64,000 nucleotides of DNA from Sulfurimonas sp. (GTDB lineage Bacteria > Campylobacterota > Campylobacteria > Campylobacterales > Sulfurimonadaceae), in assembly GCF_041583195.1 (NCBI RefSeq), contig NZ_JBFHGL010000003.1, forward strand, positions 186,001 through 250,000, written 5' to 3'. How positions within the stretch are numbered: the first letter of the stretch is position 1; every line of letters starts with the position of its first letter. Below, piece after piece: positions 1 to 18,169 of the stretch. The position numbers and the translations under genes are program-made. Under the pieces are notes generated by a model. That model had not been told where the DNA came from. It made no database searches and saw only the letters and a program-made list of their open reading frames with translations.

Positions 1-1355
1 AGAATTTTTTCATGGTAGGCTTCTTTACGACGCATAAGCGTGTTTTGCCAGTTAAAAAGACTATCTAATGTGCTAAATTCTATCATTTGACCGCCCCAGC
101 GGCTAGAAAATATACTACACAGTGATTTACTTAGTACTTTAAGTTCACTATATCCATCTTTATTGATATCTTCAAAATTATATAAAATGCTATCTTTTGA
201 TAAAGATTTTTCAATCTCGAGTATATATTTGTATGCATTATCACGAAGATTTGGAAGATAAAGACCTCCAAATACACCGTGCCAATATACATCGTTTGTT
301 TGTGCTTTATATAAACTTTCGATAAAGTCAGGTTCTAAAAGCTCCTGTTTAAGACTTAAAGAGAGCATCCTTTTATGCAGATAGTTGCTTTCATGATACT
401 TGATAAAGAAATTTTTCCAAGTACCACCTTTTACCAGAGCTATTCCTACTTTCTCAAAATATTCATCACCAAGATTTTGCTTTAACTCTTCAAGAGCAAG
501 TGTCTGCTCAGATCTTAAACTCCACTCTCCCATCTCAAAATAAGATGTGTTATTTAGGTATGCAAGACCTTTTGATCTATTGTTTTTTAAATACTCGCTA
601 TAGTGCTGTGTTTGAATAAATTTATTCTCTAAAACAGCCTCTATAAATTTTTTTAACCACTCTTGCTCATATACCCATTTGTGAGTTTTTGGCCATAATC
701 CAAACTTTTCTGCATCATCAAATATAATAGCAGCCGAATCATCCTCTTTTGAAAATTCAAGTATGGTGTCAATAGCCCGATCAACAGTATAAAAAGGAAG
801 AGCATAGCGAAGTTTTTTAGATATAGGAAAAAGAGCAAGTTCGTAACCGCCCTCTTCTGTTTTATAATACCCATCCATATTGGAATGCTCAAAACCACTA
901 CTTAAAAAGTGATAATCATCTACCATTGCATAATCAATTGAGATCTTGTTTAGATCAGGTACAATTGCAGACTCCCAAACCCTCTCTGTAAGCCATAATC
1001 CTTTTGGAGTTGTATTGAAGTGCTCCTTAATATAGTTACTTAGTTTAGTGATCTGAGTTTGTCTGTCACGTGAAGGAATTGAGCTTAGAACAGGTTCATA
1101 AAAGCCTGCACTCACCCATTCTATAGAACCTTGTTCACTTAGTTTTTTCATGTTTTGAAAAACTTTTGGATGTTTTGTTCTGATCTGCTCTAGCAACCAG
1201 CCACTAGAGTGAACTGCAAATTTAAACTTTGGATACTTGATCATGGTTTCAAAAAACGGTTCATAGCATAATTCTACTGCTTCGTTAACAGCTTCATCAA
1301 AATTATCTACAGGTTGATGCATATGGATACCAAAAAGTAAGGATACTTTTTTCAT
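1..1355 (-). CDS. GH57 glycoside hydrolase, probable 4-alpha-glucanotransferase/alpha-amylase (3' end cut by window)
   Basis: Family GH57 enzyme acting on alpha-1,4-glucans in the cytoplasm. The frame runs open from the ATG at 1353-1355 to the window edge, giving about 451 residues that begin MKKVSLLFGIHMHQP. The GH57 region 1 motif HMHQP is at residues 11-15. The putative nucleophile Glu124 lies in WLTERVWE and the acid/base Asp214 in FDDAEKFG. These positions match those of the Thermococcus litoralis 4-alpha-glucanotransferase as I recall them (E123, D214), so transferase activity is favoured over plain amylase. An AAGGA ribosome site sits just upstream of the ATG. The missing C-terminus would hold the DUF1925/1926-type beta domains. 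It stands 21 bp downstream of a second GH57 gene and probably shares its transcript. Confidence 0.88.
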   Translation of the reverse strand, partial: MKKVSLLFGIHMHQPVDNFDEAVNEAVELCYEPFFETMIKYPKFKFAVHSSGWLLEQIRTKHPKVFQNMKKLSEQGSIEWVSAGFYEPVLSSIPSRDRQTQITKLSNYIKEHFNTTPKGLWLTERVWESAIVPDLNKISIDYAMVDDYHFLSSGFEHSNMDGYYKTEEGGYELALFPISKKLRYALPFYTVDRAIDTILEFSKEDDSAAIIFDDAEKFGLWPKTHKWVYEQEWLKKFIEAVLENKFIQTQHYSEYLKNNRSKGLAYLNNTSYFEMGEWSLRSEQTLALEELKQNLGDEYFEKVGIALVKGGTWKNFFIKYHESNYLHKRMLSLSLKQELLEPDFIESLYKAQTNDVYWHGVFGGLYLPNLRDNAYKYILEIEKSLSKDSILYNFEDINKDGYSELKVLSKSLCSIFSSRWGGQMIEFSTLDSLFNWQNTLMRRKEAYHEKI

Positions 1356-3423: not shown

Positions 3424-5925
3424 TTATTCTTGTGACCATTGAGCTATTTTATCTTTATAGCTGTTATAAATAACTTCCCCGGAAGCTTTGTCTTTAGCTT
3501 GAATGTAAAGGTTGATATGATCTGTATACTGATCCGGAATCATTAATATCCAGTCTGTATTATTTTCCCATATCTTAACACCATCTATAGATGATGATTT
3601 TTTCCCTTTTGCACTCTCTAAAAATTTACGCATCATCTTACCTTTAAGTGCTTGTGTACACTCAACTTTGATCATCCTATAATCAAATTTTTCAATACAT
3701 TTTGACACATCTGAGAGTTTTACACCGTTGCAGGTTACAAGCTCCATTATTTTAATAGATGCATACATAGCATCACGTGTAGCACCAAACTCCGTAAACG
3801 TATAGTTTCCATCTACCGTAGCGATCAATTCATACTCTTTTAATTTTTTAGCATCATAATCTGCGTATTTTCCACGCTCAATCTCTAGGTTTTCAAATTC
3901 AACTATATCAGGAGCCCATGTAGGAAGGAGGACTTTTTTTGTTTTTCCCTCATCTGTCATATTTATCAAATGCAGTACGGCTAAAAGACCTCTTATCTTA
4001 TCTAACACCTCACCTTCATCAGTAACAAGTCTTATGTACTGTTCATTTGGATATATTATTACACCCATATTACATCCCAGACTTTTTACAATTGAAGAGA
4101 TATTTGATTTTGAGTTTTTCTTTAATCCATCAATATTAAAAAGTTTTTTCTCATCGTGATAAGTATTTAAAACGATATTTTCAATTCCAAGATCATTTAA
4201 AATACCAGGTAAAATATCTGCAGTGGAGCTATGCATCATATCAACTGCTACACTGAAAGTATCACACTTAGACAGACTGCTTCTAATACTGTCTTCAAAT
4301 GCCACCTTATAGCTTTGACACTCTTTATGATGCAGAGTTTCATGAATCTCTCCAACTAAAGAGTAATCCACACGACGAAATTTTTCTGTAAAAAATGCTT
4401 TTTCTATATCTTTTGATATATTTGTTCCTATGCGAAGTCCTTCGTGATTAAAAAGAGTAATTTGTGAACTTGTAGGATCCTCCATTGCCTGTTTAAAATG
4501 AGCTCCGCCAACTATTGTATCATCATGAGAAATCGTATATCTTAATACTGCACGTGCTGTATTTTTAAGATCAAGTACATCAACACCTCCTGAAAGCAGA
4601 CCTCCTAAAAATGCACGTTTTAACATACGAGAATTTTTATCGTAATCACGTCCAACGGCAACTTTAGAACCTATTGGTAGTTGCGCAGCAAATGCTTCAG
4701 CTAGTTTTGTTGCCATTTCACATGAAAGTTCAATATTACTTTTTCCGGTAACTGTACCGTCTTGAAAAATTGAATTTTTATAACGACTTCCCCATACAAG
4801 GTTATGACTTACAATTGAAGCTGATTCGATGCTTTTTTCAGGCCATATAGTAACATCTTGCTCAAAGCGGCTAAGTTCTCCGATTTCACAACCTTCTGCA
4901 AGAATTAAACCGACTTTCGCGCTAACATTTTTACCTATTGTATTATCATTACAGATAACACAGTTGTTTAACTTTGTATTGTGGCCTATAACTACATCAT
5001 TCCATAAAACTGAATTACTAATCTTAGAGTCACTGTCAATTGTAACGTTATCACCTATAACTACGTTGTTTAGTTTGACATTCTTTTTAATTATTACATT
5101 TTTACCTATAACAACATTTCCTATAATATCGATGCTTTTGTCAAACTGATAAGGTGTGTCACTATATAAAGTTCCATCAGGATACACTTCTGATTTACCT
5201 GGAATTTTAAAATTTACACGCCCAGTCAATATATCATCATATACGTCTCTATAACTCTCAGGATTACCTACATCGCGCCAATATCCTTCAAGATTATAAC
5301 CCATAAGTGGTATATTGCTTTGCATAAGTAAAGGAAAAAGATCTTTAGCGAAGTCAAAATTTTTATTTTCAGGAATATAGTTAAGAATCTCTGGCTCTAT
5401 AATATATATACCAGTATTTATTGTGTCACTAAACACTTCACCCCAACTTGGTTTTTCTAAAAACTTCTCTATTACGTTTTCTTCGTTTGCAATAACAACA
5501 CCAAACTGTAAAGGATTCTCAACAGATGTTAATACTATGGACAGCTGAGATTCTTTGCTTTCATGGAAATCTAAAATCTTTTTAAAATCAAAGTCCGTTA
5601 CAAGGTCACCGCTTATTATGATGAAGTTTTCATCTCCTATAAGCTCTTGAGCAAGTTTTACAGCCCCTGCTGTTCCATAATCATCATCTGGAAGCACATA
5701 AGATATTTTAATCCCAAATTCACTGCCATCTTTAAAATAGTCTTTAATAATATCTGGTTTAAAATAAAGTAAAACTATAAACTCTGTAATACCAATATCT
5801 TTTAATGTCATCATTGTATGTTCCATCATAGGACGGTTTACAATAGGTAACATAGGTTTAGGTCTAGAATTTGTAAGTGGTTGAATCCTACTTCCAAATC
5901 CACCTGCCATCACGACAGCCTTCAT
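3424..5925 (-). CDS. Sugar-phosphate nucleotidyltransferase fused to a left-handed beta-helix and a degenerate phosphoglucomutase domain
   Basis: 833-residue fusion. Residues 1-235 are a nucleotidyltransferase with the signature MAGGFGSRIQPLTNSRPKPM and the metal-site segment SGDLVTDFD near 105-113. It should make an NDP-sugar from a sugar 1-phosphate. Residues about 250-375 are hexapeptide repeats (VVIGKNVII, VVIGDNVTI). Residues about 395-833 align with the phosphohexomutase fold but lack its active site. Where the family has TASHNP this protein has GGAHFK (473-478), so the phosphoserine is Ala. Where the metal loop DGDADR is expected there is YPNEQYIR (625-632). The GEMSGH sugar loop reads as a YTFTEF-type segment. 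The third domain is therefore probably non-catalytic, perhaps regulatory. Usually annotated mannose-1-phosphate guanylyltransferase; context suggests glucose 1-phosphate. The start has a GGGAGAA ribosome site. Confidence 0.85.
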   Translation of the reverse strand: MKAVVMAGGFGSRIQPLTNSRPKPMLPIVNRPMMEHTMMTLKDIGITEFIVLLYFKPDIIKDYFKDGSEFGIKISYVLPDDDYGTAGAVKLAQELIGDENFIIISGDLVTDFDFKKILDFHESKESQLSIVLTSVENPLQFGVVIANEENVIEKFLEKPSWGEVFSDTINTGIYIIEPEILNYIPENKNFDFAKDLFPLLMQSNIPLMGYNLEGYWRDVGNPESYRDVYDDILTGRVNFKIPGKSEVYPDGTLYSDTPYQFDKSIDIIGNVVIGKNVIIKKNVKLNNVVIGDNVTIDSDSKISNSVLWNDVVIGHNTKLNNCVICNDNTIGKNVSAKVGLILAEGCEIGELSRFEQDVTIWPEKSIESASIVSHNLVWGSRYKNSIFQDGTVTGKSNIELSCEMATKLAEAFAAQLPIGSKVAVGRDYDKNSRMLKRAFLGGLLSGGVDVLDLKNTARAVLRYTISHDDTIVGGAHFKQAMEDPTSSQITLFNHEGLRIGTNISKDIEKAFFTEKFRRVDYSLVGEIHETLHHKECQSYKVAFEDSIRSSLSKCDTFSVAVDMMHSSTADILPGILNDLGIENIVLNTYHDEKKLFNIDGLKKNSKSNISSIVKSLGCNMGVIIYPNEQYIRLVTDEGEVLDKIRGLLAVLHLINMTDEGKTKKVLLPTWAPDIVEFENLEIERGKYADYDAKKLKEYELIATVDGNYTFTEFGATRDAMYASIKIMELVTCNGVKLSDVSKCIEKFDYRMIKVECTQALKGKMMRKFLESAKGKKSSSIDGVKIWENNTDWILMIPDQYTDHINLYIQAKDKASGEVIYNSYKDKIAQWSQE

Positions 5926-5953: not shown

Positions 5954-6232
5954 TTAAATTTTTAAAAGCGCATTCATAGAACCAAACGGTGATGGTACTG
6001 AATCTAACTCACTATCATGGTGCCATTGTTCATCGTTTATACGATATCCAAACTGGAACTCGTTATCAACAGGTAAAACCTTTGTAATATAAAACTCACC
6101 ACTCTTTTTTACTTTCATCGGCTCATCTTGCCAATCATTCCACTCACCACAAACACTAACACTTTCAACACCATCAGGTACAATACTAAATGTAACCCAA
6201 GCCTTTTGACCTTTTTTTGTAATTTTAACCAT
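5954..6232 (-). CDS. Stand-alone CBM48 / AMPK-type glycogen-binding protein
   Basis: A 92-residue protein that is essentially one carbohydrate-binding module of the isoamylase N-terminal/CBM48 fold. The diagnostic segment VSVCGEWNDWQDEPMKV (about residues 26-42) and a following FQFGYRINDEQW strand are visible. These match the glycogen-binding face of AMPK beta subunits and branching enzymes. There is no catalytic domain, signal peptide or membrane segment. Its place between the phosphorylase-like gene and the nucleotidyltransferase suggests it tethers or regulates one of those proteins on glycogen. Whether it is a free adaptor or a split-off domain is unknown. Confidence 0.82.
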   Translation of the reverse strand: MVKITKKGQKAWVTFSIVPDGVESVSVCGEWNDWQDEPMKVKKSGEFYITKVLPVDNEFQFGYRINDEQWHHDSELDSVPSPFGSMNALLKI

Positions 6233-6356: not shown

Positions 6357-8009
6357 TTATTCTACTTTATAGTCATACATATAAAGATAATATTCTGCTG
6401 CCATACGACCTGAATTAAAATCAAATTCTACATCTGTCATAGCATTTTTCATTATCTCAACCCATTTTTTAGGTTCGTTATAATATGTAGGTATTACTTT
6501 GTTTTCTAAAATATCCATCATATTTTTATTGTCAATACGATCTTGTTCTTCTATAGGAAGAGTATGATCTACTGGAGGTATGGTAAAAGAGTTGGCACCA
6601 TCACGTGCGAATTCTGGATGCCAGCCATCGTCCATTGATACATGGATAGAACCATTCATGCTTGCTGTCATACCACTTGTACCACTTGCTTCACGAGTTA
6701 TACGAGGTGTATTTAACCACACATCACTTCCCTCTTTTAAAAGACGAGATAACTCAAGCTCATACCCTGTTAAAACAGCTATGTTTGCATAATGATCACT
6801 AATATGAATAAGTTCATTAAATATCTCAACTGCACCTTGATCTGTAGGATAAGGTTTGCCTGCCCAGATAATCTGTACCGGCATCTCTGTACGTTTGATC
6901 AGTTGGACAAAACGCTCAAGGTCATATTTTAAAAGACCAGGACGCTTATACTCGGCAAAACGACGTGCCCATACAATAGTCAGTATCTCTGGATCAAACA
7001 TTTTCCCGGTTTGGTCTGCTACGATAGCAAAAAGTAATTTTTTAAGGTGCATCTTACGAGCAATAAGCTCATAGTCTTCATGCTCATCTAATGCTCTAAT
7101 AAGTGTTTTATCTGTCCAAAACTTTTTGTTTTGAGCATTTGTAATAGATATGATATCGCAACGTTTTTCTACTTTAGACCACATATTATTAGCTACTTCA
7201 CCGTGAATCTTTGAAACAGCGTTTGCAATCTTTGCAGCACGGAGTGCTCCAACCGTTATACTAAAGTTATTATCAGCATTTGTACAACTTATTTCTCTGA
7301 CTTGCTCAAGTGATAATCCCGAAAAGAATCCCATCTCATATAAGAAATTTATATCGTGTTCTTCGTTACCTGCTTTTTCAGGTGTATGTGTTGTAAAAAC
7401 TACACGTTTCTTTACTTCTTCCATATCTTTATATTTGTTGTATAGTTGATAAACTAAAGGCAGAGAATGTCCTTCGTTCATATGGTATATATCTACTGAT
7501 TGGTTAAGTGCTTCTAGAATCTTGACACCACCAATACCCAGTACAATCTCTTGAGCTACACGTGTACGCTCATTACCATCATATAGTTTGTGTGTGATAG
7601 TTCTTGATAGATAGTCGTTTTCCTCTGTATCTGTAGAAAGAAGAATTATTGGAGCTGTACCAAAAATATCAGGATGAAGTAAATATGCTTTTACAACCAC
7701 ATCTTCATTATGAATCTTAACCTTAACAGATACTGCCAACTCTTCTAAAAAGTAGTAATTTTTACGTGTGTATTGTACTCTTAAAGTACGATCTTCATTG
7801 CGGGCTTGATCGTAATAACCGTAACTCCAAAGTAGACCCACGCCTATTACGCTCTGTTTTAAATCGTACACACTTCTCATATGTGAACCTGATAAAAAAC
7901 CAAGTCCCCCTGAATAAATCTTTAACGATTGATCAATAGCAAATTCCATTGAGAAATAAGCACACCTAGTATTGTATTTTTCATTAATATGATATGAAAA
8001 CAAATTCAT
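6357..8009 (-). CDS. Alpha-glucan phosphorylase family (GT35) protein lacking the PLP lysine
   Basis: 550 residues of the short bacterial/archaeal alpha-glucan phosphorylase family (TIGR02094 type). Visible landmarks are GGLGFLSGSH near 34-43, HMNEGHSLPL at 176-185, VWARRFAEYKRPG at 346-358, and EASGTSGMTASMNG at 440-453. In active phosphorylases the last motif reads SGTSGMK or SGTGNMK and its Lys forms the Schiff base with pyridoxal phosphate. Here the codon is ACA, giving Thr448. The rest of the motif is intact and the reading frame shows no decay. Either the enzyme works without PLP, for example as an NDP-glucose-dependent glucan synthase, or it is a regulatory pseudo-enzyme. The neighbouring sugar nucleotidyltransferase and CBM48 genes fit a role in glycogen synthesis or turnover. 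Confidence 0.8.
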   Translation of the reverse strand: MNLFSYHINEKYNTRCAYFSMEFAIDQSLKIYSGGLGFLSGSHMRSVYDLKQSVIGVGLLWSYGYYDQARNEDRTLRVQYTRKNYYFLEELAVSVKVKIHNEDVVVKAYLLHPDIFGTAPIILLSTDTEENDYLSRTITHKLYDGNERTRVAQEIVLGIGGVKILEALNQSVDIYHMNEGHSLPLVYQLYNKYKDMEEVKKRVVFTTHTPEKAGNEEHDINFLYEMGFFSGLSLEQVREISCTNADNNFSITVGALRAAKIANAVSKIHGEVANNMWSKVEKRCDIISITNAQNKKFWTDKTLIRALDEHEDYELIARKMHLKKLLFAIVADQTGKMFDPEILTIVWARRFAEYKRPGLLKYDLERFVQLIKRTEMPVQIIWAGKPYPTDQGAVEIFNELIHISDHYANIAVLTGYELELSRLLKEGSDVWLNTPRITREASGTSGMTASMNGSIHVSMDDGWHPEFARDGANSFTIPPVDHTLPIEEQDRIDNKNMMDILENKVIPTYYNEPKKWVEIMKNAMTDVEFDFNSGRMAAEYYLYMYDYKVE

Positions 8010-8024
8010 AACAACTCCTTAGCC

Positions 8025-9020
8025 TCACTTATTACCAATAAATACACACATATCTACAAGTCTACTGCTGTATCCCCATTCATTATCGTACCAAGCTAGT
8101 ACTTTAACCGTTTTACCATCTACTACACTTGTCATATCCGGTATGTAAGTAGAGCTATATGTAGAGCCTATAAAATCACTTGAAACACGCTTTTGATTAT
8201 CTATCTCTATTAAATCTGAAAACTCACCTTTAGATGCTAATTCCATGGCATAATTTACATCATCAACACTAACCTCTTTTTTAAGATTAACCGTCAGATC
8301 TACAACTGAAACATCAGGAGTAGGAACACGCATAGCATAACCGTTAAGTTTTCCATGTAAATGAGGCATAACTTTACCAATGGCCTTTGCAGCACCTGTT
8401 GTTGTAGGAATCATATTAATAGCGGCAGCACGTGCACGACGCATATCTTTAGAGTGTTTAACATCAAGTATGTTTTGATCGTTAGTATAAGAATGTATAG
8501 TAGTCATCAGACCGTTTTCAATACCAAAAGAGTCATCTAGAACTTTACATATAGGTGCAAGAGCGTTTGTAGTACAGCTAGCATTGGAAATTATAGCTTC
8601 TCCATTATACTGATCTGTATTTATATTAAGTACGTAAGTTGGTGTATCATCTTTGGCCGGTGCTGACATAACTACTTTTTTGACGCCATTTTTTAAATAA
8701 CCTTGTGCTTTTTCGGAAGTTAAAAAAACACCAGTACATTCAATAACAAGCTCAGCTCCACGTGAGCCAAAGTCAAGCTCATTAATATTACGAGTAAAAG
8801 ATAAAGAAACATTTTTTCCATATATATTGATTGTATTATCATTTACAAGTTTAGCATCAATGCCATTATGAACGCTGTCATAATTGAATAAATATTCCAA
8901 CATTTCAGGTTTTGTAGTTGTATTTATTGCTACAAGCTCAATATCATCACGTCTTGCAATGATTTTTGCTACTATAATTCCTATACGTCCTGTTCCATTA
9001 ATTGCTACTTTAAGTGCCAT
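8025..9020 (-). CDS. gap: Glyceraldehyde-3-phosphate dehydrogenase, type I
   Basis: Catalyses the reversible oxidation/phosphorylation of glyceraldehyde 3-phosphate. The catalytic Cys149 lies in SNASCTTNALAP and the Rossmann motif is NGTGRIG at residues 8-14. The C-terminus WYDNEWGYSSRLVD is typical. I place the start at the ATG at 9018-9020 (MALKVAIN), 6 nt after AAGGA; a TTG two codons upstream abuts the ribosome site and is unlikely. At the end of the second strand the usual NAD-binding Asp (AINDLTD) is replaced: the sequence reads AINTTTKP, so use of NADP(H) is possible. It is followed 15 bp downstream by the phosphorylase-like gene, tying gluconeogenic flux to the glucan block. Confidence 0.95.
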   Translation of the reverse strand: MALKVAINGTGRIGIIVAKIIARRDDIELVAINTTTKPEMLEYLFNYDSVHNGIDAKLVNDNTINIYGKNVSLSFTRNINELDFGSRGAELVIECTGVFLTSEKAQGYLKNGVKKVVMSAPAKDDTPTYVLNINTDQYNGEAIISNASCTTNALAPICKVLDDSFGIENGLMTTIHSYTNDQNILDVKHSKDMRRARAAAINMIPTTTGAAKAIGKVMPHLHGKLNGYAMRVPTPDVSVVDLTVNLKKEVSVDDVNYAMELASKGEFSDLIEIDNQKRVSSDFIGSTYSSTYIPDMTSVVDGKTVKVLAWYDNEWGYSSRLVDMCVFIGNK

Positions 9021-9315
9021 GGTCAATCCTTAAATTAAGTAACTATACAAACTAAGCATTATGCTAAACAAATAAACTTTATGTGGTGAAACTACCAAGA
9101 ATAACTAATTATAAAAATATTAACTTAAAAATAACTATATAAATACAATTAATAACGAATATAATACAGAAAATACATAATATGTGACCATTATGATACT
9201 TTATTAGCATTAAGTAGAGAAAATATGAACAACAATCTTTGATATATAAGAGTTGCAAAAAGAAGAAAAAATGATTAATATTAAATAATATGCAGATAGT
9301 ATTTATATAAAAGAA
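9021..9315. other. AT-rich spacer between gap and rnpB
   Basis: About 295 bp of very AT-rich DNA with no supportable gene. It must hold the promoter of gap (minus strand) and the 3' processing or termination region of rnpB (minus strand). A weak AT hairpin (ATATTA/TAATAT) followed by a T-run is visible downstream of rnpB near 9260-9295, but it is too weak to call a terminator with confidence. Confidence 0.5.
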
Positions 9316-10523: not shown

Positions 10524-11078
10524 TTAAGCTAAAGCTTCTAATGCATATTTTTCACCAAGCTCGTAAGCTTTTTTATTAGCTTCATGTACTTTTGGTGGTA
10601 CTTTTGAAAGCATAATGTTAATTAGGTGATCTTTTTCAATTGCTTTCATCATAGTGTTAGCAATTGCTAATGCAACAACAGATTGAGTAATAACATTACC
10701 AACCTCTTCTTTTGCAATAGTAATAATTGGAATCTCATAAATATTCCAGTTTTTTCTATCTTCTTCAGTTGGAGTAATAAGGTTTGGATCAATTACGATT
10801 GTTCCACCTTTTGATACACCGTTTTTAAATAGATCAAAAGAAACTTGTGCAACTGAAAGCATAAAGTCAATTTCACCATCATTTGCATATGGGTAGTAGA
10901 TCTCTTCATCATCTAAAGTAATATCAACAACTGTCGGACCACCACGAACTTGTGATGTATATGTAGCTGTCTTAAGTCCGTGACCACCAGCTTTGATTTT
11001 TGCAGCTGCAAAAATCTCACCTGCAAGAAGAACACCCTGTCCACCAACACCTGTAAATCTCATTAAAGTTCTAGCCAT
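10524..11078 (-). CDS. oorC: 2-oxoglutarate:ferredoxin oxidoreductase, gamma subunit
   Basis: 184-residue gamma-domain subunit of the CoA-acylating 2-oxoacid oxidoreductase. The N-terminus MARTLMRFTGVGGQGVLLAG has the GxGGQGxxxxG motif of the family, and TSQVRGGPTVVDI follows near residues 41-53. The complex converts 2-oxoglutarate + CoA to succinyl-CoA + CO2 with ferredoxin or flavodoxin, and can run in the carboxylating direction in reductive TCA bacteria. Last gene of oorDABC; the order D-A-B-C is the one known from Campylobacter and Helicobacter. It is followed by a clear terminator. Confidence 0.95.
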   Translation of the reverse strand: MARTLMRFTGVGGQGVLLAGEIFAAAKIKAGGHGLKTATYTSQVRGGPTVVDITLDDEEIYYPYANDGEIDFMLSVAQVSFDLFKNGVSKGGTIVIDPNLITPTEEDRKNWNIYEIPIITIAKEEVGNVITQSVVALAIANTMMKAIEKDHLINIMLSKVPPKVHEANKKAYELGEKYALEALA

Positions 11079-11089
11079 TGTGTTTCTCC

Positions 11090-11947
11090 TTATATTTTCT
11101 TAACAAAGTCATTTTGAGTAATTAAACCACGCTTACCTTGCTGTGCAGCTTTAATATCTTCATACATATCACAGTATTCACGTGCTTCTGTATCTTCTTT
11201 TAATACACCAGTAGGAAGTAAGTTTAATTGCTCTTCTTCACTTAAAGCATCATATTTTTTCTTAGCCATAGTAATAGAGTCAATCCACTCTAAGTTTTCC
11301 ATAGCATTTTTCATTTGGTTTTTACGACCAAGGTTAATATGACAGTTAGAAAGTACTTCTAAGAAAGAGAAACCTTTATGCTCTAAAGCTTTAATCATAA
11401 CTTTCTCTAATTTCTTAGGATCTAGCATAGTCTCACGAGCAACAAAAGATGCACCAGAAGCTATAGCTAAATTAGAAGCATCAAAAGTTGGATCGATATT
11501 ACCAGCTTTTTGAGAAACTGTCCACATACCTTGAGGAGTAGTTGGAGAAGTTTGAGAATTTGTTAAACCATAGATAAAGTTATTAATAACGATTAAAGTC
11601 ATATCTATATTTCTTCTACAACCGTGAATTGTATGGTTACCACCAATTGCAAGTGCATCACCATCACCAGCTACACAAACAACTAATTTGTCTGGATTAG
11701 CAAGTTTTACACCTGTTGCGAATGCTACAGTACGACCGTGAGTTGTGTGAACTGTATTGAAGTCTACATAAGAAGAGAATCTTCCTGAACAACCGATACC
11801 AGATACAACACAAACGTCATCTTGGCTTACACCAATTTTATCAACTGCACGGATGAATGCTTTTAATATAACACCATCACCACAACCCCAACACCATAGT
11901 GTCGGCATTTTTTCAAGTCTTAAATATTTATCGTAATTAAATGCCAT
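11090..11947 (-). CDS. oorB: 2-oxoglutarate:ferredoxin oxidoreductase, beta subunit (TPP and Fe-S binding)
   Basis: 285 residues carrying the thiamine diphosphate site: VAGDGDALAIGGNH, then about 30 residues on VINNFIYGLTNSQTSPTT. Cluster ligands are seen as CWGCG (Cys19, Cys22), Cys53 in GIGCSGR and a later Cys in LSNCHINLG. Together with OorA this forms the catalytic core that decarboxylates or carboxylates at the 2-oxo carbon. One base separates the oorA stop from this gene, and 11 bp separate it from oorC, so translation is tightly coupled. Confidence 0.95.
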   Translation of the reverse strand: MAFNYDKYLRLEKMPTLWCWGCGDGVILKAFIRAVDKIGVSQDDVCVVSGIGCSGRFSSYVDFNTVHTTHGRTVAFATGVKLANPDKLVVCVAGDGDALAIGGNHTIHGCRRNIDMTLIVINNFIYGLTNSQTSPTTPQGMWTVSQKAGNIDPTFDASNLAIASGASFVARETMLDPKKLEKVMIKALEHKGFSFLEVLSNCHINLGRKNQMKNAMENLEWIDSITMAKKKYDALSEEEQLNLLPTGVLKEDTEAREYCDMYEDIKAAQQGKRGLITQNDFVKKI

Positions 11948-11948
11948 A

Positions 11949-13097
11949 TTAGAATACCTCTTTTACTTTATTTACAATTTCGTATGGAGAAAGTGCTCTA
12001 CCGTTAACTTTATAAAGACCTTCAATATCAAGTCTTTGAGAAACTCTCTCTACCTCTTCAGTATATTGTCTAATGTTTAACTCAACACATAAAACATTTT
12101 TAACTTTGTCTGTAAAATGCTTGATTCTCTCAGCAGGTGATGGCCATAAAGTGATTGGTCTAAATAAACCAGCTTTAATACCATCAGCTCTTAAGTGACG
12201 AATCGCCTCTTTAGCTGCAAGTGAAACTGAACCGTAAGCGATGATTAATACATCGTTTTCTTCTAGATCATCACACATAAACTCTTCGTTAAGCTCTAAC
12301 TCATCAGTATGAGCCATAACTTTATCTTCAAGTCTTTGAATAAGTTTTCTACAAGTCTCAATTTCCTCAGTTGGGAAACCTTTTGCATCATGGTGAAGAC
12401 CAGTAAAGTGGTATCTATAACCTTTAAACATAGGGTTAAGTACAGCTGCTTCAGTTGGACCACACTCATATGGACGGTAATCTTCAGGAGCACCATCAAA
12501 AGTTTTACGAGGTACAATTCCAGCTTTTACATCTTCAGGAGTTGGTAACATTGCTTTACCATGCATGTGACCTAAAGTCTCATCAGTTAAAACAAAAACA
12601 GGTTGCATAAAACGATCTGCTAAGTTAAATGCACGTACAACTTCAGTGTAACACTCAGCTAAAGTACCTGCACATAAAGTGATTGAACGGTAGTCACCGT
12701 GAGACGGGTTTTTAGCTTGACGAACGTCACCTTGAGATACACGAGTCGGTAAACCAGTTGATGGACCACCACGCATAACGTTTACAACTACTAAAGGAAC
12801 CTCTGCCATTTGAGCAAGACCTAAGTTTTCAGCTTTTAGTGAAATACCAGGACCTGAAGTTGCAGTCATAGTACGAACACCACTCATACCAGCACCGATA
12901 GCTGCTGCTACACCAGCAATCTCATCTTCCATCTGAATCGCAGCACCACCGTTCTTTGGTAAAAGATCAGAGATAGTGTGCATTACCTCAGATGATGGAG
13001 TAATTGGATACCCACCAAAAAATTCACAACCAGCATCTACAGCTGCAATAGCAGCTAAATCATTACCAGTAGATATTACTTCTCTTAATTCTGCCAT
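11949..13097 (-). CDS. oorA: 2-oxoglutarate:ferredoxin oxidoreductase, alpha subunit
   Basis: 382 residues. The N-terminal pyrimidine-binding domain shows GNDLAAIAAVDAGCEFFGGYPITPSSE and IQMEDEIAGVAAAIGAGMSG, the segment with the Glu that activates TPP. The TSGPGISLKAENLGLAQMAE stretch is also conserved. The C-terminal domain II (from about residue 270) has ENDVLIIAYGSVSLAAKEAI. It partners OorB. The first codon overlaps the last base of oorD, giving coupled translation. Length and order match the Campylobacter/Helicobacter Oor enzyme rather than the pyruvate enzyme Por. Confidence 0.95.
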   Translation of the reverse strand: MAELREVISTGNDLAAIAAVDAGCEFFGGYPITPSSEVMHTISDLLPKNGGAAIQMEDEIAGVAAAIGAGMSGVRTMTATSGPGISLKAENLGLAQMAEVPLVVVNVMRGGPSTGLPTRVSQGDVRQAKNPSHGDYRSITLCAGTLAECYTEVVRAFNLADRFMQPVFVLTDETLGHMHGKAMLPTPEDVKAGIVPRKTFDGAPEDYRPYECGPTEAAVLNPMFKGYRYHFTGLHHDAKGFPTEEIETCRKLIQRLEDKVMAHTDELELNEEFMCDDLEENDVLIIAYGSVSLAAKEAIRHLRADGIKAGLFRPITLWPSPAERIKHFTDKVKNVLCVELNIRQYTEEVERVSQRLDIEGLYKVNGRALSPYEIVNKVKEVF

Positions 13098-13444
13098 TAT
13101 TTCGCTCCTTGCTCAAGTGACATATAGTTGTTTGCAACAATTTTTGCCTGACGCTCTTTAGCTTCATCAGTAAGTTTTGCAAAGCTATAGCCAGCTTCTT
13201 TAAATTCTTTTTTGTCTGCTACATATATAGCGAAGTCTGGACATGTAAGTTCACACTCCATACAACCTATACATGCTTCTGGATGATCAACAGAGATCAT
13301 TGCACCTAAAGTTGATGTTGATTCATATTTCATTCCAAGTACACCTGAAGGACATACTGATACACAGATGTCACACGCTTTACAGTTGTCTGTATTTACC
13401 CATACCGGTTGATCACCTGGATTTACCATCGGACTTGCTGCCAT
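13097..13444 (-). CDS. oorD: 2-oxoglutarate:ferredoxin oxidoreductase, delta (ferredoxin-like) subunit
   Basis: 115-residue polyferredoxin subunit. Two [4Fe-4S] motifs are clear: CKACDICVSVCPSG near residues 23-36 and CIGCMECELTCPD near 58-70. It passes electrons between the OorAB catalytic core and free ferredoxin. It is the first gene of oorDABC, with the overlap to oorA described there. The 174 bp upstream carry two double GTTAC boxes that may control the whole operon. Confidence 0.95.
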   Translation of the reverse strand: MAASPMVNPGDQPVWVNTDNCKACDICVSVCPSGVLGMKYESTSTLGAMISVDHPEACIGCMECELTCPDFAIYVADKKEFKEAGYSFAKLTDEAKERQAKIVANNYMSLEQGAK

Positions 13445-13575
13445 ATTTTCTCCTAATTTTTAATATTAAGTCTAGTTACTAATATTTATAATTATTGACT
13501 TAACTTTGTTATCCCCAAAAGAATAACCTAATTTTTATTAAACTAACTCTATTTGTGCTACTGACGCTTCAATGT

Positions 13576-13622
13576 GTAACCTAAAGTTACACATAAAAGC
13601 TCACACTGTTACCTTTAGTTAC
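13576..13622 (-). promoter_or_regulatory. Paired GTTAC-type boxes upstream of oorD
   Basis: Box A reads GTAAC-CTAAA-GTTAC at 13576-13590 and is extended by TGT/ACA to longer arms (13573-13593). Box B reads GTTAC-CTTTA-GTTAC at 13608-13622 and overlaps the sucD stop codon. Half-sites within each box repeat with a 10-bp period and the two boxes start 32 bp apart. They lie 132-178 bp upstream of the oorD start. A related pair is present upstream of acnB, so a common regulator of TCA genes is likely. Confidence 0.6.
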
Positions 13623-14491
13623 TTCTTTAAAACCTCTGCTACAGCTTTTCCAATCTCAGCAGGAGAAACTACAACTTTAACACCAGCTGCTTCAAGAGCT
13701 GCCATCTTCTCTGCTGCAGTTCCAGCACCACCAGATACGATAGCACCAGCGTGACCCATACGTTTACCTTTAGGTGCTGTTTGACCAGCAATAAAAGCAA
13801 CAACAGGCTTAGTAATATTTTCTTTAATAAAAGCTGCCGCTTGAATCTCAAGATCTCCACCGATTTCACCGATCATAACGATTGCTTCAGTTTCTGGATC
13901 AGCTTCAAACATTGGTAACAGTTGCTTGTATGAAAGACCGATAATTGGATCTCCACCGATACCTACAGCTGTTGTAATACCAAAACCTTCTTTACATACT
14001 TGGTTTGCACCTTCATATGTTAATGTACCAGACTTTGAAATAAGCCCTACATTACCTTTTTTGAAAATCATACCAGGCATGATTCCAATTTTACACTCTT
14101 CAGCAGTGATGATACCAGGACAGTTTGGCCCAATTGTTTTCATACCGTGTTTATTAGCATAAGCTTTTGCAGCTTGCATATCACGAACAGGAGCACCTTC
14201 TGTAATAATTACAGCTAGTTCAATTCCTGCTTCAGCAGCTTCCATTACAGCATCTGCAACAAAAACAGGCGGAACAAATATCATAGATACAGTAGCACCT
14301 GTATTTTTTACAGCATCACTTACTGTATTGAAAACCGGTTTACCTAGGTGTTCTTGACCACCTTTATTTGGTGTAACACCACCAACGATGTTAGTACCGT
14401 ATGCTATACATTGCTCAGCATGGAAAGTACCCTCTTTACCTGTAAAACCTTGAACTATTACTTTTGTATCTTTGTTTACTAAAATACTCAT
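13619..14491 (-). CDS. sucD: Succinyl-CoA synthetase, alpha subunit (ADP/GDP-forming)
   Basis: 290 residues. Interconverts succinate + CoA + NTP and succinyl-CoA. The CoA-binding domain begins [12 protein letters not shown] (residues 13-24), and the phosphohistidine loop [13 protein letters not shown] puts His247 at the active site. Only 5 bp separate it from sucC. The genes downstream (oorDABC) use the succinyl-CoA made here if the cycle runs reductively. A GTTAC box covers its stop codon. Confidence 0.96.
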
Positions 14492-14496
14492 TTAAA

Positions 14497-15666
14497 TTAT
14501 TCTCCCTTCGCTGCAGCTACTGCTTTTGCAGCACCATCAGCTAAATCAGTTGCAGCTATTACATTTGAAATATTTGCATTTTTAAGAATCTCTGCAGCTT
14601 CAGGTGCATTAGTTCCATCAAGACGAACAACAACAGGTACACGTACATCTACCATTTTAGTTGCTTCTAAAATACCATTTGCAATACGATCACATCTAAC
14701 AATTCCACCAAAAATGTTTACGAAGATTGCTTTAACATTTTGGTTTTTAAGAATGATTTCAAAACCTTTAGCAACAGTCTCTGCATTAGCTTTACCACCA
14801 ACATCAAGGAAGTTAGCAGGTGTACCACCCATATGGTTAATTGTATCCATAGTACCCATTGCAAGACCTGCACCGTTTACCATACAACCAATTTCACCAT
14901 CAAGTGATACATATGAAAGTCCATATTGACTTGCTTCACGCTCGTCAGGATCTTCCTCTGTGATATCTCTCATATCTTCGATATCTGGGTGACGTCCAAG
15001 AGCTGAATCATCAAATCCCATCTTACCATCAAGTGCCAAGAAATCTCCTGCACCAGTTTTGATTAGAGGGTTAATTTCGATCATCTCTGCATCGTTTTCC
15101 ATATATACATTATATAAAGCTGCAGCAAACTTGATAAATTTACCTTGTTCCTCTTTTGGAAGACCTAGACCAAATGCTAACTCACGACCGTGGAAACCTT
15201 GAAAACCTATAGCTGGATCAACAGCTACTTTTACGATTTTCTCAGGAGTTTCTTCAGCTACTTTTTCAATCTCCATACCACCTTCAGTAGAAGCCATAAT
15301 AACAGGCATCTCTTTAGCACGATCAAGAACTACACCAAGGTAGAATTCATCTTTAATGTCAGCACCCTCTTCTATGTATACTTTATGTACCTCTTTACCT
15401 TCAGGACCTGTTTGGTGAGTTACAAGTTGCATGTGAAGAATTTCACCAGCTAACTGCTCAACTTCAGAAATAGACTTAGCAAGTTTAACACCACCGCCAA
15501 GACCACGTCCACCTGCATGGATTTGAGCTTTAACAACCCAAACTTTTCCACCTAACTCGTGTGCAGCAGCAACAGCTTGCGCTGGTGTGTTAGCAACAAT
15601 TCCTCTTGGTGTTGGTACACCATATTTAGCAAAAATTTGTTTTGCTTGATATTCATGTATATTCAT
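14497..15666 (-). CDS. sucC: Succinyl-CoA synthetase, beta subunit
   Basis: 389 residues with an ATP-grasp fold. The N-terminus [20 protein letters not shown] and the segment [19 protein letters not shown] (nucleotide and Mg site) are typical. The C-terminal ligase domain has [16 protein letters not shown]. It forms the alpha2beta2 or alpha-beta enzyme with SucD. It follows fumarase beta by 27 bp with a GGAG-type ribosome site and is part of the mdh-fum-suc transcript. Confidence 0.96.
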
Positions 15667-15693
15667 TCAATCTCCTTGTTTTGAAATGTGTTT

Positions 15694-16251
15694 TTATTTA
15701 ACTTCGTATTGTTCACGACCCATTTGATAAAGGTCGTTTCCGTATGTATCGTTTACTACTGTAACCGGAAAGTCTTTTACTGTTAATTTTCTAACAGCTT
15801 CTGGACCAAGTTCAGGATACGCAATTACTTCGGCACTTGTAATTTGTTTTCCAAGTAAAGCACCTGCTCCACCTGTTGCACCAAAGTAAATTCCTCCGTA
15901 TTCCTTACAAGCATCTTTTACTTCTTGATTTCTTTTACCCTTACCAATCATACCTTTTGAGCCATGCTTAAGCATTGTCGGAGAGTATGAATCCATACGA
16001 TAAGATGTAGTAGGGCCTGCACTTCCTATTGGATCACCAGGTTTAGGAGGTGTTGGTCCAACGAAGTAAATAACACTTCCTTCTAAATCAAATGGAAGTT
16101 CTTCACCTGCTTCAATTAAGTCAACAAGTTTTTTATGAGCCGCATCACGAGCCGTATATATAGTTCCGCTTAAATATACAATATCACCTGCTTTAAGGCT
16201 TCTTGTAGTTTCTTCAGTAAGTGGTGTAGTTAAATTATATGTTTTACTCAT
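15694..16251 (-). CDS. fumB: Fumarate hydratase class I, beta (C-terminal) subunit
   Basis: 185 residues of the Fe-S hydro-lyase beta-domain family (fumarase / L-tartrate dehydratase). Conserved segments are GDIVYLSGTIYTARDAAHKK, GPTTSYRMDSYSPTMLKHG and GKGKRNQEV. The subunit carries much of the substrate pocket while the alpha subunit binds the oxygen-sensitive cluster. The adjacent malate dehydrogenase gene supports fumarase rather than tartrate dehydratase. It is 10 bp downstream of the alpha-subunit gene. The gene symbol follows the split-fumarase convention, not E. coli fumB. Confidence 0.9.
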   Translation of the reverse strand: MSKTYNLTTPLTEETTRSLKAGDIVYLSGTIYTARDAAHKKLVDLIEAGEELPFDLEGSVIYFVGPTPPKPGDPIGSAGPTTSYRMDSYSPTMLKHGSKGMIGKGKRNQEVKDACKEYGGIYFGATGGAGALLGKQITSAEVIAYPELGPEAVRKLTVKDFPVTVVNDTYGNDLYQMGREQYEVK

Positions 16252-16261
16252 CCCTTACCCC

Positions 16262-17113
16262 TTATATTGTAATATGTGTGTGACGTGAAGAGTGACACTG
16301 TACATTTACTGAAACCGGCAGAGAAGCAATATGGCAAGGGTTAGATTCAATATGTACAGCTAAAGCTGTTTGTGTACCACCCATACCCATAGAACCAATT
16401 CCAAGATTATTAATCTCTTTCATCATTCTTTCTTCAAGTTCAGCCATCTCAGGATCTTCGTTTTTAGTACCAAGATCACGGAAAAGTGCGTGTTTAGAAC
16501 TAATTGCAGCTTTTTCAAATGTACCACCTATTCCAACACCTACAGTGATTGGAGGACATGGGTTTGGTCCAGCATCGCTAATACACTCTTTTACAAACTC
16601 AACTACACCATCTTTACCAGCAGCAGGTGGGAATACACGAGCACGTGACACATTCTCACTACCTCCGCCTTTTGCAGCGTATTCAATCTCTATTTTATCA
16701 CCTTCAACTATGTCAAAGTGGATAATTGCAGGAAGGTTATAACCAACTGTATCTTTTAAGTTTGCACGAGAAAAAGGCTCACATGTAGAAGCTCTTAAAT
16801 AACCTTCAGTATAACCTTTTTCAGTACCTTCATTGATAGCATCTTTTAATAATCCGCCTACAACTTTAACATCAGCGCCAACTTTTACAAAAAATACAGC
16901 TAAACCTGTATCTTGGCATAGAGGACGAGCCTCGCTACTTGCAATATCAGCATTTTCAAGTAGCTGTTTTAAAACCTCTTTACTTACAGGGCTTTTTTCA
17001 TTTTCATAAGCTGCTTTCATGGCATTTAAAGCATCTTCTGGCAAGTTAGAGGCAGAATAAACTATAATGTCTCTAACATTTTTTACGATCTCTTCGTATG
17101 CAATTTCACGCAT
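16262..17113 (-). CDS. fumA: Fumarate hydratase class I, alpha (N-terminal, [4Fe-4S]) subunit
   Basis: 283 residues. Candidate cluster ligands are Cys66 in ARPLCQDTG, Cys186 in AGPNPCPPITVG and a Cys in the C-terminal NVQCHSSRH segment. The dehydratase reversibly hydrates fumarate to malate and works in the cytoplasm. The start codon shares its last base with the end of the mdh stop (TAATG-type junction), so translation is coupled to mdh. Two-subunit class I fumarases are usual in Campylobacterota that run a reductive TCA cycle. Confidence 0.92.
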   Translation of the reverse strand: MREIAYEEIVKNVRDIIVYSASNLPEDALNAMKAAYENEKSPVSKEVLKQLLENADIASSEARPLCQDTGLAVFFVKVGADVKVVGGLLKDAINEGTEKGYTEGYLRASTCEPFSRANLKDTVGYNLPAIIHFDIVEGDKIEIEYAAKGGGSENVSRARVFPPAAGKDGVVEFVKECISDAGPNPCPPITVGVGIGGTFEKAAISSKHALFRDLGTKNEDPEMAELEERMMKEINNLGIGSMGMGGTQTALAVHIESNPCHIASLPVSVNVQCHSSRHTHITI

Positions 17114-18072
17114 TATTTAGTTTCCTCAAAAAATTTATGTTTATTTAGTGAATCAATTAATTCTTGAACAGAATCACAAGAATTTTTAAACATCTCTTTC
17201 TCTTTTTCATCTAGTGTTACTTCAATGATCTTCTCAGCTCCATTTGCACCAAGCATTACAGGAACACCTGAAACAACATCACTGTATCCATACTCACCTT
17301 CTAGACAAACTGCACAAGGATGAATTTGCTTAGTATCTTTTAAAATAGCTTCAACCATAATAGCTGTAGATTTAGCAGGTGCATAATATGCTGAACCTGT
17401 TTTTAAATAACCAACTATCTCTGCACCACCATGACGTGTACGATTTACAATCTCGTTTATCTCATCACTAGTTAAAACATCTGAAAGAGGTACACCAGCT
17501 ACTGTTGAGTAACGAGGTAATGGAACCATGTCATCACCATGACCACCCATAACAGATGCACGAATCTGACCCCCACCGTATCCAAGTTTTTCCTGAATAA
17601 ATGCTGCCATACGAGAACTATCTAAAATACCAGCCATACCAATAACGCGACTTCTATCAAAACCACTCTCTTTTAATGCAACATAAGTCATTGCATCAAG
17701 TGGATTTGAAACCATAATAATTATCGCATTTGGAGAGTATTTTGCTATTCCGCCAATAACATCTCTAGTAATGTTTGCATTTGTCATAAGTAAATCATCA
17801 CGACTCATCCCAGGTAAACGAGGACTACCAGCTGTTACAACAACAACATCACAATCAGTAAGTTGAGACATGTCTTCTGCAACTGTAACAACAGTGTGAC
17901 TTCTTACTGCAGCAGCAGCTTGAGACATATCAAGGGCTTTACCTTTAGCTACTTCGATTTTGTTGTCACGTAAAATAATTTCATGACAAGAACCAAGCAT
18001 AGCTAACGAGTATGCAACTGTAGCACCAACATTTCCGGCACCTACTATTCCTACTCTTTTTCCTTTACTCAT
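17113..18072 (-). CDS. mdh: Malate dehydrogenase (LDH/MDH superfamily)
   Basis: 319 residues. The NAD-binding loop is [17 protein letters not shown] (residues 8-24), followed by the mobile loop [15 protein letters not shown] with substrate-binding Arg residues. [14 protein letters not shown] and the catalytic His in [14 protein letters not shown] are intact. It is the first gene of the mdh-fumAB-sucCD-oorDABC series. A TATAAT lies 27 bp upstream of the start and an AAGGAG ribosome site precedes the ATG. The icd terminator sits just upstream, so the series starts its own transcript here. Confidence 0.96.
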
Positions 18073-18099
18073 ACATACTCCTTTAAAAATTTTGCTTCT

Positions 18100-18105
18100 A
18101 TTATA
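18100..18105 (-). promoter_or_regulatory. Candidate -10 element for the mdh-fum-suc(-oor) operon
   Basis: TATAAT on the minus strand, 27 bp upstream of the mdh ATG and downstream of the icd terminator at 18132-18163. No conserved -35 is obvious. The placement gives a short leader ending in an AAGGAG ribosome site. Confidence 0.55.
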
Positions 18106-18131
18106 AAACTAATAACTAGTTTCATAAAAAA

Positions 18132-18163
18132 AGCAAAATGAGGGATATTCCCTCATAATTGCT
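18132..18163 (-). terminator. Rho-independent terminator of icd
   Basis: On the minus strand a 7-bp stem TGAGGGA/TCCCTCA with a 3-nt loop is extended by AGCAA/TTGCT arms and followed by seven T residues. It begins 7 bp after the icd stop codon. Confidence 0.92.
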
Positions 18164-18169
18164 ATGATA

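Follow-up and report, generated by a model that had tools for sequence, protein, structure and literature searches.

An open reading frame in the glycogen gene cluster of the window (i.e., the whole 64,000-nucleotide stretch of DNA analysed here) encodes a GT35 protein that lacks the lysine to which glycogen phosphorylases tether pyridoxal phosphate (PLP), and the same lysine is missing throughout a subfamily with members in Campylobacterota, Bacteroidota and Verrucomicrobiota. This lysine-less protein is a real and testable GT35 variant that was not found in the open-licence literature. We regard it, with roughly as much confidence as doubt, as a putative active GT-B enzyme that degrades alpha-glucan in the place of glycogen phosphorylase, without Schiff-base PLP. 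The features concerned are the following (window numbering):

3–1355, minus strand: GH57 protein of the 4-alpha-glucanotransferase/amylase type, truncated by the end of the window and whole in locus L081
1377–3413, minus strand: GH57 protein (Pfam match)
3424–5925, minus strand: fused sugar nucleotidyltransferase/phosphohexomutase, the genome's best match to the glgC model at 139 of 424.9 bits (below the cut-off)
5954–6232, minus strand: stand-alone glycogen-binding protein (AMPK1_CBM/CBM48-type), 92 aa
6357–8009, minus strand: coding sequence of the lysine-less GT35 (TIGR02094) protein, 550 aa (from the ORF, profile scores and an AlphaFold model)
6666–6668, minus strand: codon ACA for Thr448, at the PLP-lysine position (K646 of E. 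coli MalP; from the reading frame and alignment)
6666–6692, minus strand: EASGTSGMT motif from E440 to T448, of which E440 aligns with E377 of E. coli GlgA (from alignments)
6942–6965, minus strand: RRFAEYKR (R349–R356), the phosphate-binding motif, which is kept; R350 and K355 align with R300 and K305 of E. coli GlgA (from alignments)
7128–7145, minus strand: ITNAQN (residues 289–294), fixed in the lysine-less clade vs. ITNGVH in lysine-bearing relatives (from alignments)
8025–9026, minus strand: type I GAPDH with a listed TTG start, directly upstream of the lysine-less gene (from its profile score)

The lysine-less gene starts with an ATG codon preceded by AAGGAG, and its translation reads EASGTSGMTASMNG. 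Re-reading of this frame reproduced the coordinates, the ACA codon and the Thr448 numbering of the original prediction, and the lysine-to-threonine change in SGTSGMK that it reported was confirmed, 76 of the 78 loci fetched from named genomes carrying T, S or A at residue 448. In the alignment, Thr448 is paired with the PLP lysine of E. coli MalP, K646 (residue number as given in a passage of PMC11046441). The protein scored 451.2 bits against TIGR02094, over the curated cut-off of 191.7, and 50.8 bits against PF00343 (cut-off of 27), which was its only Pfam match at an E-value of 0.001, with no match to a GT4 Pfam model; against the GT5 model TIGR02095 it reached 43 bits, below the cut-off of 328.45. 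With regard to the hallmarks of GT35, the PLP lysine of SGT[SG]xxK is replaced (T448), and the other active-site residues (GGLG, His, Asn, R-x4-K and Glu) and a phosphorylase-type GT-B fold (predicted in AlphaFold model m6d707e7abe15) are present.

The family-wide alignment at position 448 identified the missing lysine as a subfamily trait: T (63), S (24) or A (2) occurred in the 89 lysine-less rows, some of which seem to hold one gene twice (identical scores for L077/L110 and for L034/L117), vs. K in all 53 lysine-type rows. Contig-end fragments (L047, L052, L053 and L067) and split genes (L063 and L076), all with T, S or A, were left out of the alignments, as were a broken gene (L109) and repeat fetches. 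The two fetched loci with K were more distant, i.e., Anaerolineales L078 and Heliorestis L080, and the occurrence of SGTSGMT in Bacteroidota proteins, suggested in the original prediction, was confirmed (e.g., L062 and L079). When the position was read in each genome of the Campylobacterota sample, the 38 short members had T (12), S (25) or A (1) and never K; these 38 and the 76 fetched loci exclude chance or a sequencing error behind Thr448.

The Campylobacterota sample comprised 298 tool-drawn genomes, 44 of which had a TIGR02094 match. GT35 and a strong GT5 occurred together in 43 genomes and neither in 253, with GT35 only in one (G053, where the gene is broken) and GT5 only in another (G210). 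The 43 genomes with both families carried the lysine-less protein alone (28), the lysine type alone (5) or both types (10), and hence the lysine-less protein is the sole TIGR02094 member in 28 of its 38 Campylobacterota carriers. These include the window's genome, in which it is the only TIGR02094/GT35 match (by a profile that also matches E. coli, whose phosphorylases belong to another subfamily). The broken G053 gene (L109/L210) is a lysine-type TIGR02094 gene interrupted by several stop codons; this genome has no GT5, and the loss of its glycogen system is possibly in progress. In the 21 Bacteroidota and Verrucomicrobiota carriers, the lysine-less gene was the only TIGR02094 type, and in 19 of them the only GT35 match, G307 and G316 having an additional E. 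coli-type match. Among 247 Bacteroidota, about 26 genomes had the lysine-less score pattern (the sequence itself being read in G309 and G458) and, by match counts, none of these had a lysine-type TIGR02094 match, an either/or pattern that is confounded with phylogeny and may be accounted for by it.

To place the clade, a tree rooted on GT5 was built from 27 lysine-less rows, 20 lysine-type rows (together 47 of the 142 TIGR02094 rows), two E. coli phosphorylases and three GT5 proteins. The lysine-less rows were monophyletic (100/100), with a long stem of 1.18 changes per column, and a branch with 100/99 support joined them to the short lysine-bearing L080, L165 and L170, the whole group lying among lysine-bearing TIGR02094 proteins. 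Although the branch leading to GT5 has a great length (4.77), this nesting rests on the two inner branches with 100/99 and 100/100 support. The lysine was therefore lost once, secondarily, and its absence has been kept since, and an ancestral NDP-sugar state of the clade was rejected on the same placement. The sister proteins from Heliorestis (L080 and L165) and Bacteroidota (L170) are likewise short (frames of 575–605 aa) and 34–38% identical to the window protein, but differ from it in having SGMK and ITNGVH. Heliorestis itself has two short lysine-bearing TIGR02094 paralogues (L080 and L165) in this sister group. Comparison of lysine-less genes gave pN/pS values of 0.12–0.25 for six pairs with saturated dS, and a dN/dS of 0.06 for a seventh, the only pair that could be corrected; this purifying selection rules out pseudogene decay.

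Apart from position 448, the lysine-less rows retain G34, G35, E179, H208, N291, W298, R350, K355, R356, E440 and T444 in 89 of 89 cases, R349 in 88 and Y416 in 85 (H in the other 4). The original prediction that all flanking residues are conserved holds for the motif itself, but not elsewhere, as approximately 40 positions are fixed differently from the lysine-bearing relatives. These include D42S, GF to VW at 346–347, A386P, N/G/D417 to E, A/G421 to S, V/I425 to K, and ITNGVH to ITNAQN at 289–294, and since several lie in or near active-site motifs, more than the loss of the tether is suggested. The residue at 448 is always small (T, S or A), which suggests a cavity, and since A occurs there, a hydroxyl group is probably not essential. 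Lys30 was considered as a new phosphate-site residue and rejected: it appeared clade-specific against 17 lysine-type rows, but K was later found in 3 of 53.

Profile alignment to GT5 paired H208, N291 and R350 with H161, N246 and R300 of E. coli GlgA, and K355, Y416, E440 and T448 with K305, Y355, E377 and Y385. The AlphaFold model (mean pLDDT of 92.3, pTM of 0.91) was closest to the solved Segatella copri glycogen phosphorylase (9l6i; Z of 35.6, rmsd of 2.1 over 537 residues), followed by E. coli MalP (1ahp; Z of 32.2, rmsd of 2.4 over 533 residues), E. coli glycogen synthase with ADP (3cop; Z of 31.3, rmsd of 3.1 over 440) and Arabidopsis starch synthase IV (6gne; Z of 31.2, rmsd of 2.9 over 457). 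The predicted fold alone allows no choice between phosphorolysis and synthase chemistry.

The gene order in the window's genome is GAPDH, lysine-less GT35, the 92-aa glycogen-binding protein, the nucleotidyltransferase-phosphohexomutase, GH57 and the glucanotransferase-type GH57, continuing beyond the window with a GalT-like protein, GT5, a ROK kinase, GT5 and GlgB. Adjoining this cluster, the minus strand from 10524 to 20344 presumably encodes 2-oxoglutarate ferredoxin oxidoreductase subunits, succinyl-CoA synthetase, fumarase, malate dehydrogenase and isocitrate dehydrogenase in a single run. No match in this genome reached the glgC cut-off. The nucleotidyltransferase-phosphohexomutase fusion (3424–5925) is the cluster's only plausible source of NDP-glucose, in a genome without a true GlgC.

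At 55 Campylobacterota loci (of very unequal length, and with neighbour families checked on representatives), at least 41 had a glycolysis gene within five genes of the lysine-less gene, at least 38 a glycogen gene and at least 53 either of these, counts that are lower bounds because the gene finder gives priority to the longest ORFs, and genes can be masked by ORFs on the opposite strand (as happened to the lysine-less gene of G058 in L190). Within the same distance, PfkA was present at no fewer than 28 loci, nucleotidyltransferase-PGM at no fewer than 24, Pgi at 21 or more, GH57 proteins at 21 or more and 18 or more, GAPDH at 18 or more, Pgk at 17 or more, GT5 at 14 or more and Pyk at 7 or more. 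Pgi directly preceded the lysine-less gene at 18 of its 21 loci, and Pgk was the next gene after it at 16 of 17. L041 and L052 had neither glycolysis nor glycogen neighbours, and no conserved neighbourhood surrounded the gene in the Bacteroidota and Verrucomicrobiota carriers.

The slot of the lysine-less gene can be filled by the lysine type. In G006 and G224, a lysine-type GT35 is followed by CBM48, nucleotidyltransferase, GH57, GH57, GalT, ROK and GT5, i.e., it lies where the window's genome has the lysine-less gene, and in all five lysine-only Campylobacterota genomes the lysine type is found near the same nucleotidyltransferase. In G264 and G219 it is a neighbour of Pgm, Pgi and the nucleotidyltransferase, and in G129, which belongs to the same genus as the window, it precedes Pgm and the nucleotidyltransferase by a few genes. 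The nucleotidyltransferase therefore tracks the cluster, and not the missing lysine. Five of the ten genomes with both types were inspected for gene location. The two types are three genes apart in G029 (lysine-type GT35, Pgm, Pgi, lysine-less GT35, nucleotidyltransferase) and on separate contigs in G131; in G145 and G199 the cluster contains the lysine-less gene, and the lysine type lies at another place next to a GAPDH; and the lysine type adjoins a glycogen-binding gene in G058. That ten genomes keep both types suggests that their functions may differ.

The gene context, i.e., glycolysis neighbours (PfkA and Pyk) and the slot of the lysine type, points to breakdown, and the step absent from it is the release of activated glucose from glycogen, not synthesis. 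The enzyme would then carry out phosphorolysis at chain ends to yield glucose 1-phosphate, which Pgm, Pgi and Pfk would carry into glycolysis, with the GH57 glucanotransferase and the ROK kinase presumably handling short chains and glucose. Most speculatively, either a free second oxyanion bound at R349/R350/K355 might replace the 5′-phosphate of PLP in a PLP-free enzyme, or PLP might be held non-covalently in the cavity left by the small residue at 448.

In passages of PMC2837607, the catalytic group of glycogen phosphorylase is the 5′-phosphate of PLP and not its aldehyde. A review (PMC12018205, in part) names glycogen phosphorylase as the earliest case of chemical rescue, with a 1977 reference on phosphate analogues and the pyridoxal-reconstituted enzyme, and excerpts of PMC8950772 and PMC12018205 count GT4 trehalose phosphorylase among the retaining phosphorylases and assign it an RXXXXK phosphate site. 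Together, the catalytic phosphate, the chemical rescue and this GT4 precedent make a PLP-free or loosely PLP-binding phosphorylase chemically plausible. The RXXXXK site is present in the window protein as R350-x4-K355, a motif so common among GT-B enzymes that the match does not indicate GT4 membership. Counting against a phosphorolytic enzyme without Schiff-base PLP, the characterised glycogen phosphorylases depend absolutely on PLP bound to an invariant lysine, as stated in a passage of PMC2837607. The ten genomes with both types, the roughly 40 fixed changes and the lack of a conserved neighbourhood in Bacteroidota and Verrucomicrobiota carriers count against it as well.

An unlikely, though possible, alternative is that NDP or NMP takes the place of PLP, the enzyme either making alpha-glucan from NDP-glucose or releasing NDP-glucose from glycogen. 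The original prediction had opted for an NDP-sugar glucan synthase; the lysine loss from which it started is real and defines a subfamily, but the synthase itself is unsupported. Use of a nucleotide is in line with the GT5 pairings of T448, E440, R350/K355 and Y416, with the ADP-bound 3cop nearly equalling MalP by Z (over 440 vs. 533 aligned residues), with the open cavity suggested by the never large residue at 448, and with the nucleotidyltransferase and GalT-like protein in the cluster. The nucleotidyltransferase had been put forward as an adjacent gene, but the 92-aa CBM48-type ORF separates it from the lysine-less gene, and a lysine-bearing GT35 precedes the same two genes (CBM48 and nucleotidyltransferase) in G006 and G224. 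The glycolysis neighbours (PfkA and Pyk) likewise speak for breakdown. Moreover, of 28 clade-fixed positions (448 included), only 2 match the GT5 majority, equal to the 2 of 28 for the lysine type, and thus the clade has not converged on GT5. In GT4 NDP-sugar enzymes, we take the second Glu of the EX7E pattern to fall at the PLP-lysine position, and this Glu is absent from the clade (T, S or A at 448). According to a proposal in section 69 of the review PMC11046441, an NDP-sugar-using proto-GT35 exchanged a nucleoside monophosphate for PLP, and even if this proposal fits NDP use, the tree makes the clade derived and not ancestral.

A further synthase would also be added to existing ones, as each of the 38 Campylobacterota carriers has a GT5 glycogen synthase that scores above the curated cut-off, and the window's genome has two copies. 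Among the 21 Bacteroidota and Verrucomicrobiota carriers, 4 have a full GT5 over the cut-off, 6 a GT5-like protein (275–289 bits) and 8 GlgE, and because one or more of the three occur in 16 of 21, a synthase by default where GT5 is absent was rejected. The other five (G304, G306, G308, G313 and G317) have none of the three, with GlgB over the cut-off in G304, and a synthase role is uncontradicted in those five. Fourteen Bacteroidota carriers (G298–G300, G302–G309, G314, G317 and G318) encode an open-frame protein of about 272–334 aa that covers no more of the glgA model than its N-terminal half (about positions 2–226 of 477), and ten of these fourteen lack a full GT5 over the cut-off.

That the protein is a pseudo-phosphorylase, binding glycogen and regulating or anchoring other enzymes without catalysis of its own, is improbable. 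The loss of a cofactor lysine described as invariant and essential would agree with it, as would the lysine-bearing copy kept in 10 of 38 Campylobacterota carriers, but no other catalytic position varies across the three phyla, and the protein is the sole TIGR02094 member in the remaining 28 and the sole GT35 match in 19 of the 21 other carriers. We find it quite improbable, too, that a cofactor-free 4-alpha-glucanosyltransferase or hydrolase does no more than rearrange or shorten glucan chains: in its favour, the clade retains the sugar site and E440 and has lost the cofactor lysine, but such an enzyme would have no need of the phosphate-binding R349/R350/K355, and the cluster already has a GH57 protein of the glucanotransferase/amylase type. 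Least of all do we expect PLP to be still covalently bound on another clade-fixed lysine. K425 (89/89 rows, vs. V/I/T/L in 53 lysine-type rows), K319 (89/89) and K323 (84/84 in a smaller alignment) are available, but K425 lies in helix 418–427 and T448 in helix 444–450 of the predicted model, and the weaker candidate K30 is shared by 3 rows of the lysine type.

Glycogen phosphorylase is the textbook example of PLP serving an enzyme through its phosphate alone, and GT4 trehalose phosphorylase is not known to require PLP. A selected, multi-phylum clade without the PLP lysine in the same metabolic slot makes the need for PLP in GT-B phosphorolysis testable, and likewise whether a free oxyanion, loosely bound PLP or a nucleotide can substitute for it. 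If a nucleotide did take PLP's place, a clade of at least three phyla would have swapped the cofactor and would move glucose between glycogen and NDP-sugar, as a living, secondarily derived version of the NDP-sugar enzyme proposed as the origin of PLP phosphorylases. Since its members match a model named "alpha-glucan family phosphorylase", annotations and metabolic models may credit them with an activity for which no measurement was found. No report of a lysine-less GT35 clade was found in the open-licence literature, a body with no preprints and few subscription papers.

Compared to the TIGR02094 phosphorylases (nearest solved structure 9l6i), the window protein shares the fold, the SGTSG loop, the catalytic H/N/E/R/K positions and a place in the glycogen cluster, but differs in the absent PLP lysine and the roughly 40 fixed substitutions, and at about 550 aa it is without the N-terminal extension of the 700–900 aa lysine-bearing forms. 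With E. coli GlgA (GT5) it has in common the GT-B fold and equivalents of R300, K305, E377, H161 and Y355, but its score (43 bits vs. the TIGR02095 cut-off of 328) and the lack of convergence at clade-fixed positions set it apart. GT4 trehalose phosphorylase is of another family and acts on another substrate, but shares the RXXXXK site (PMC12018205, in part) and would serve as a model for Pi-dependent retaining GT-B catalysis.
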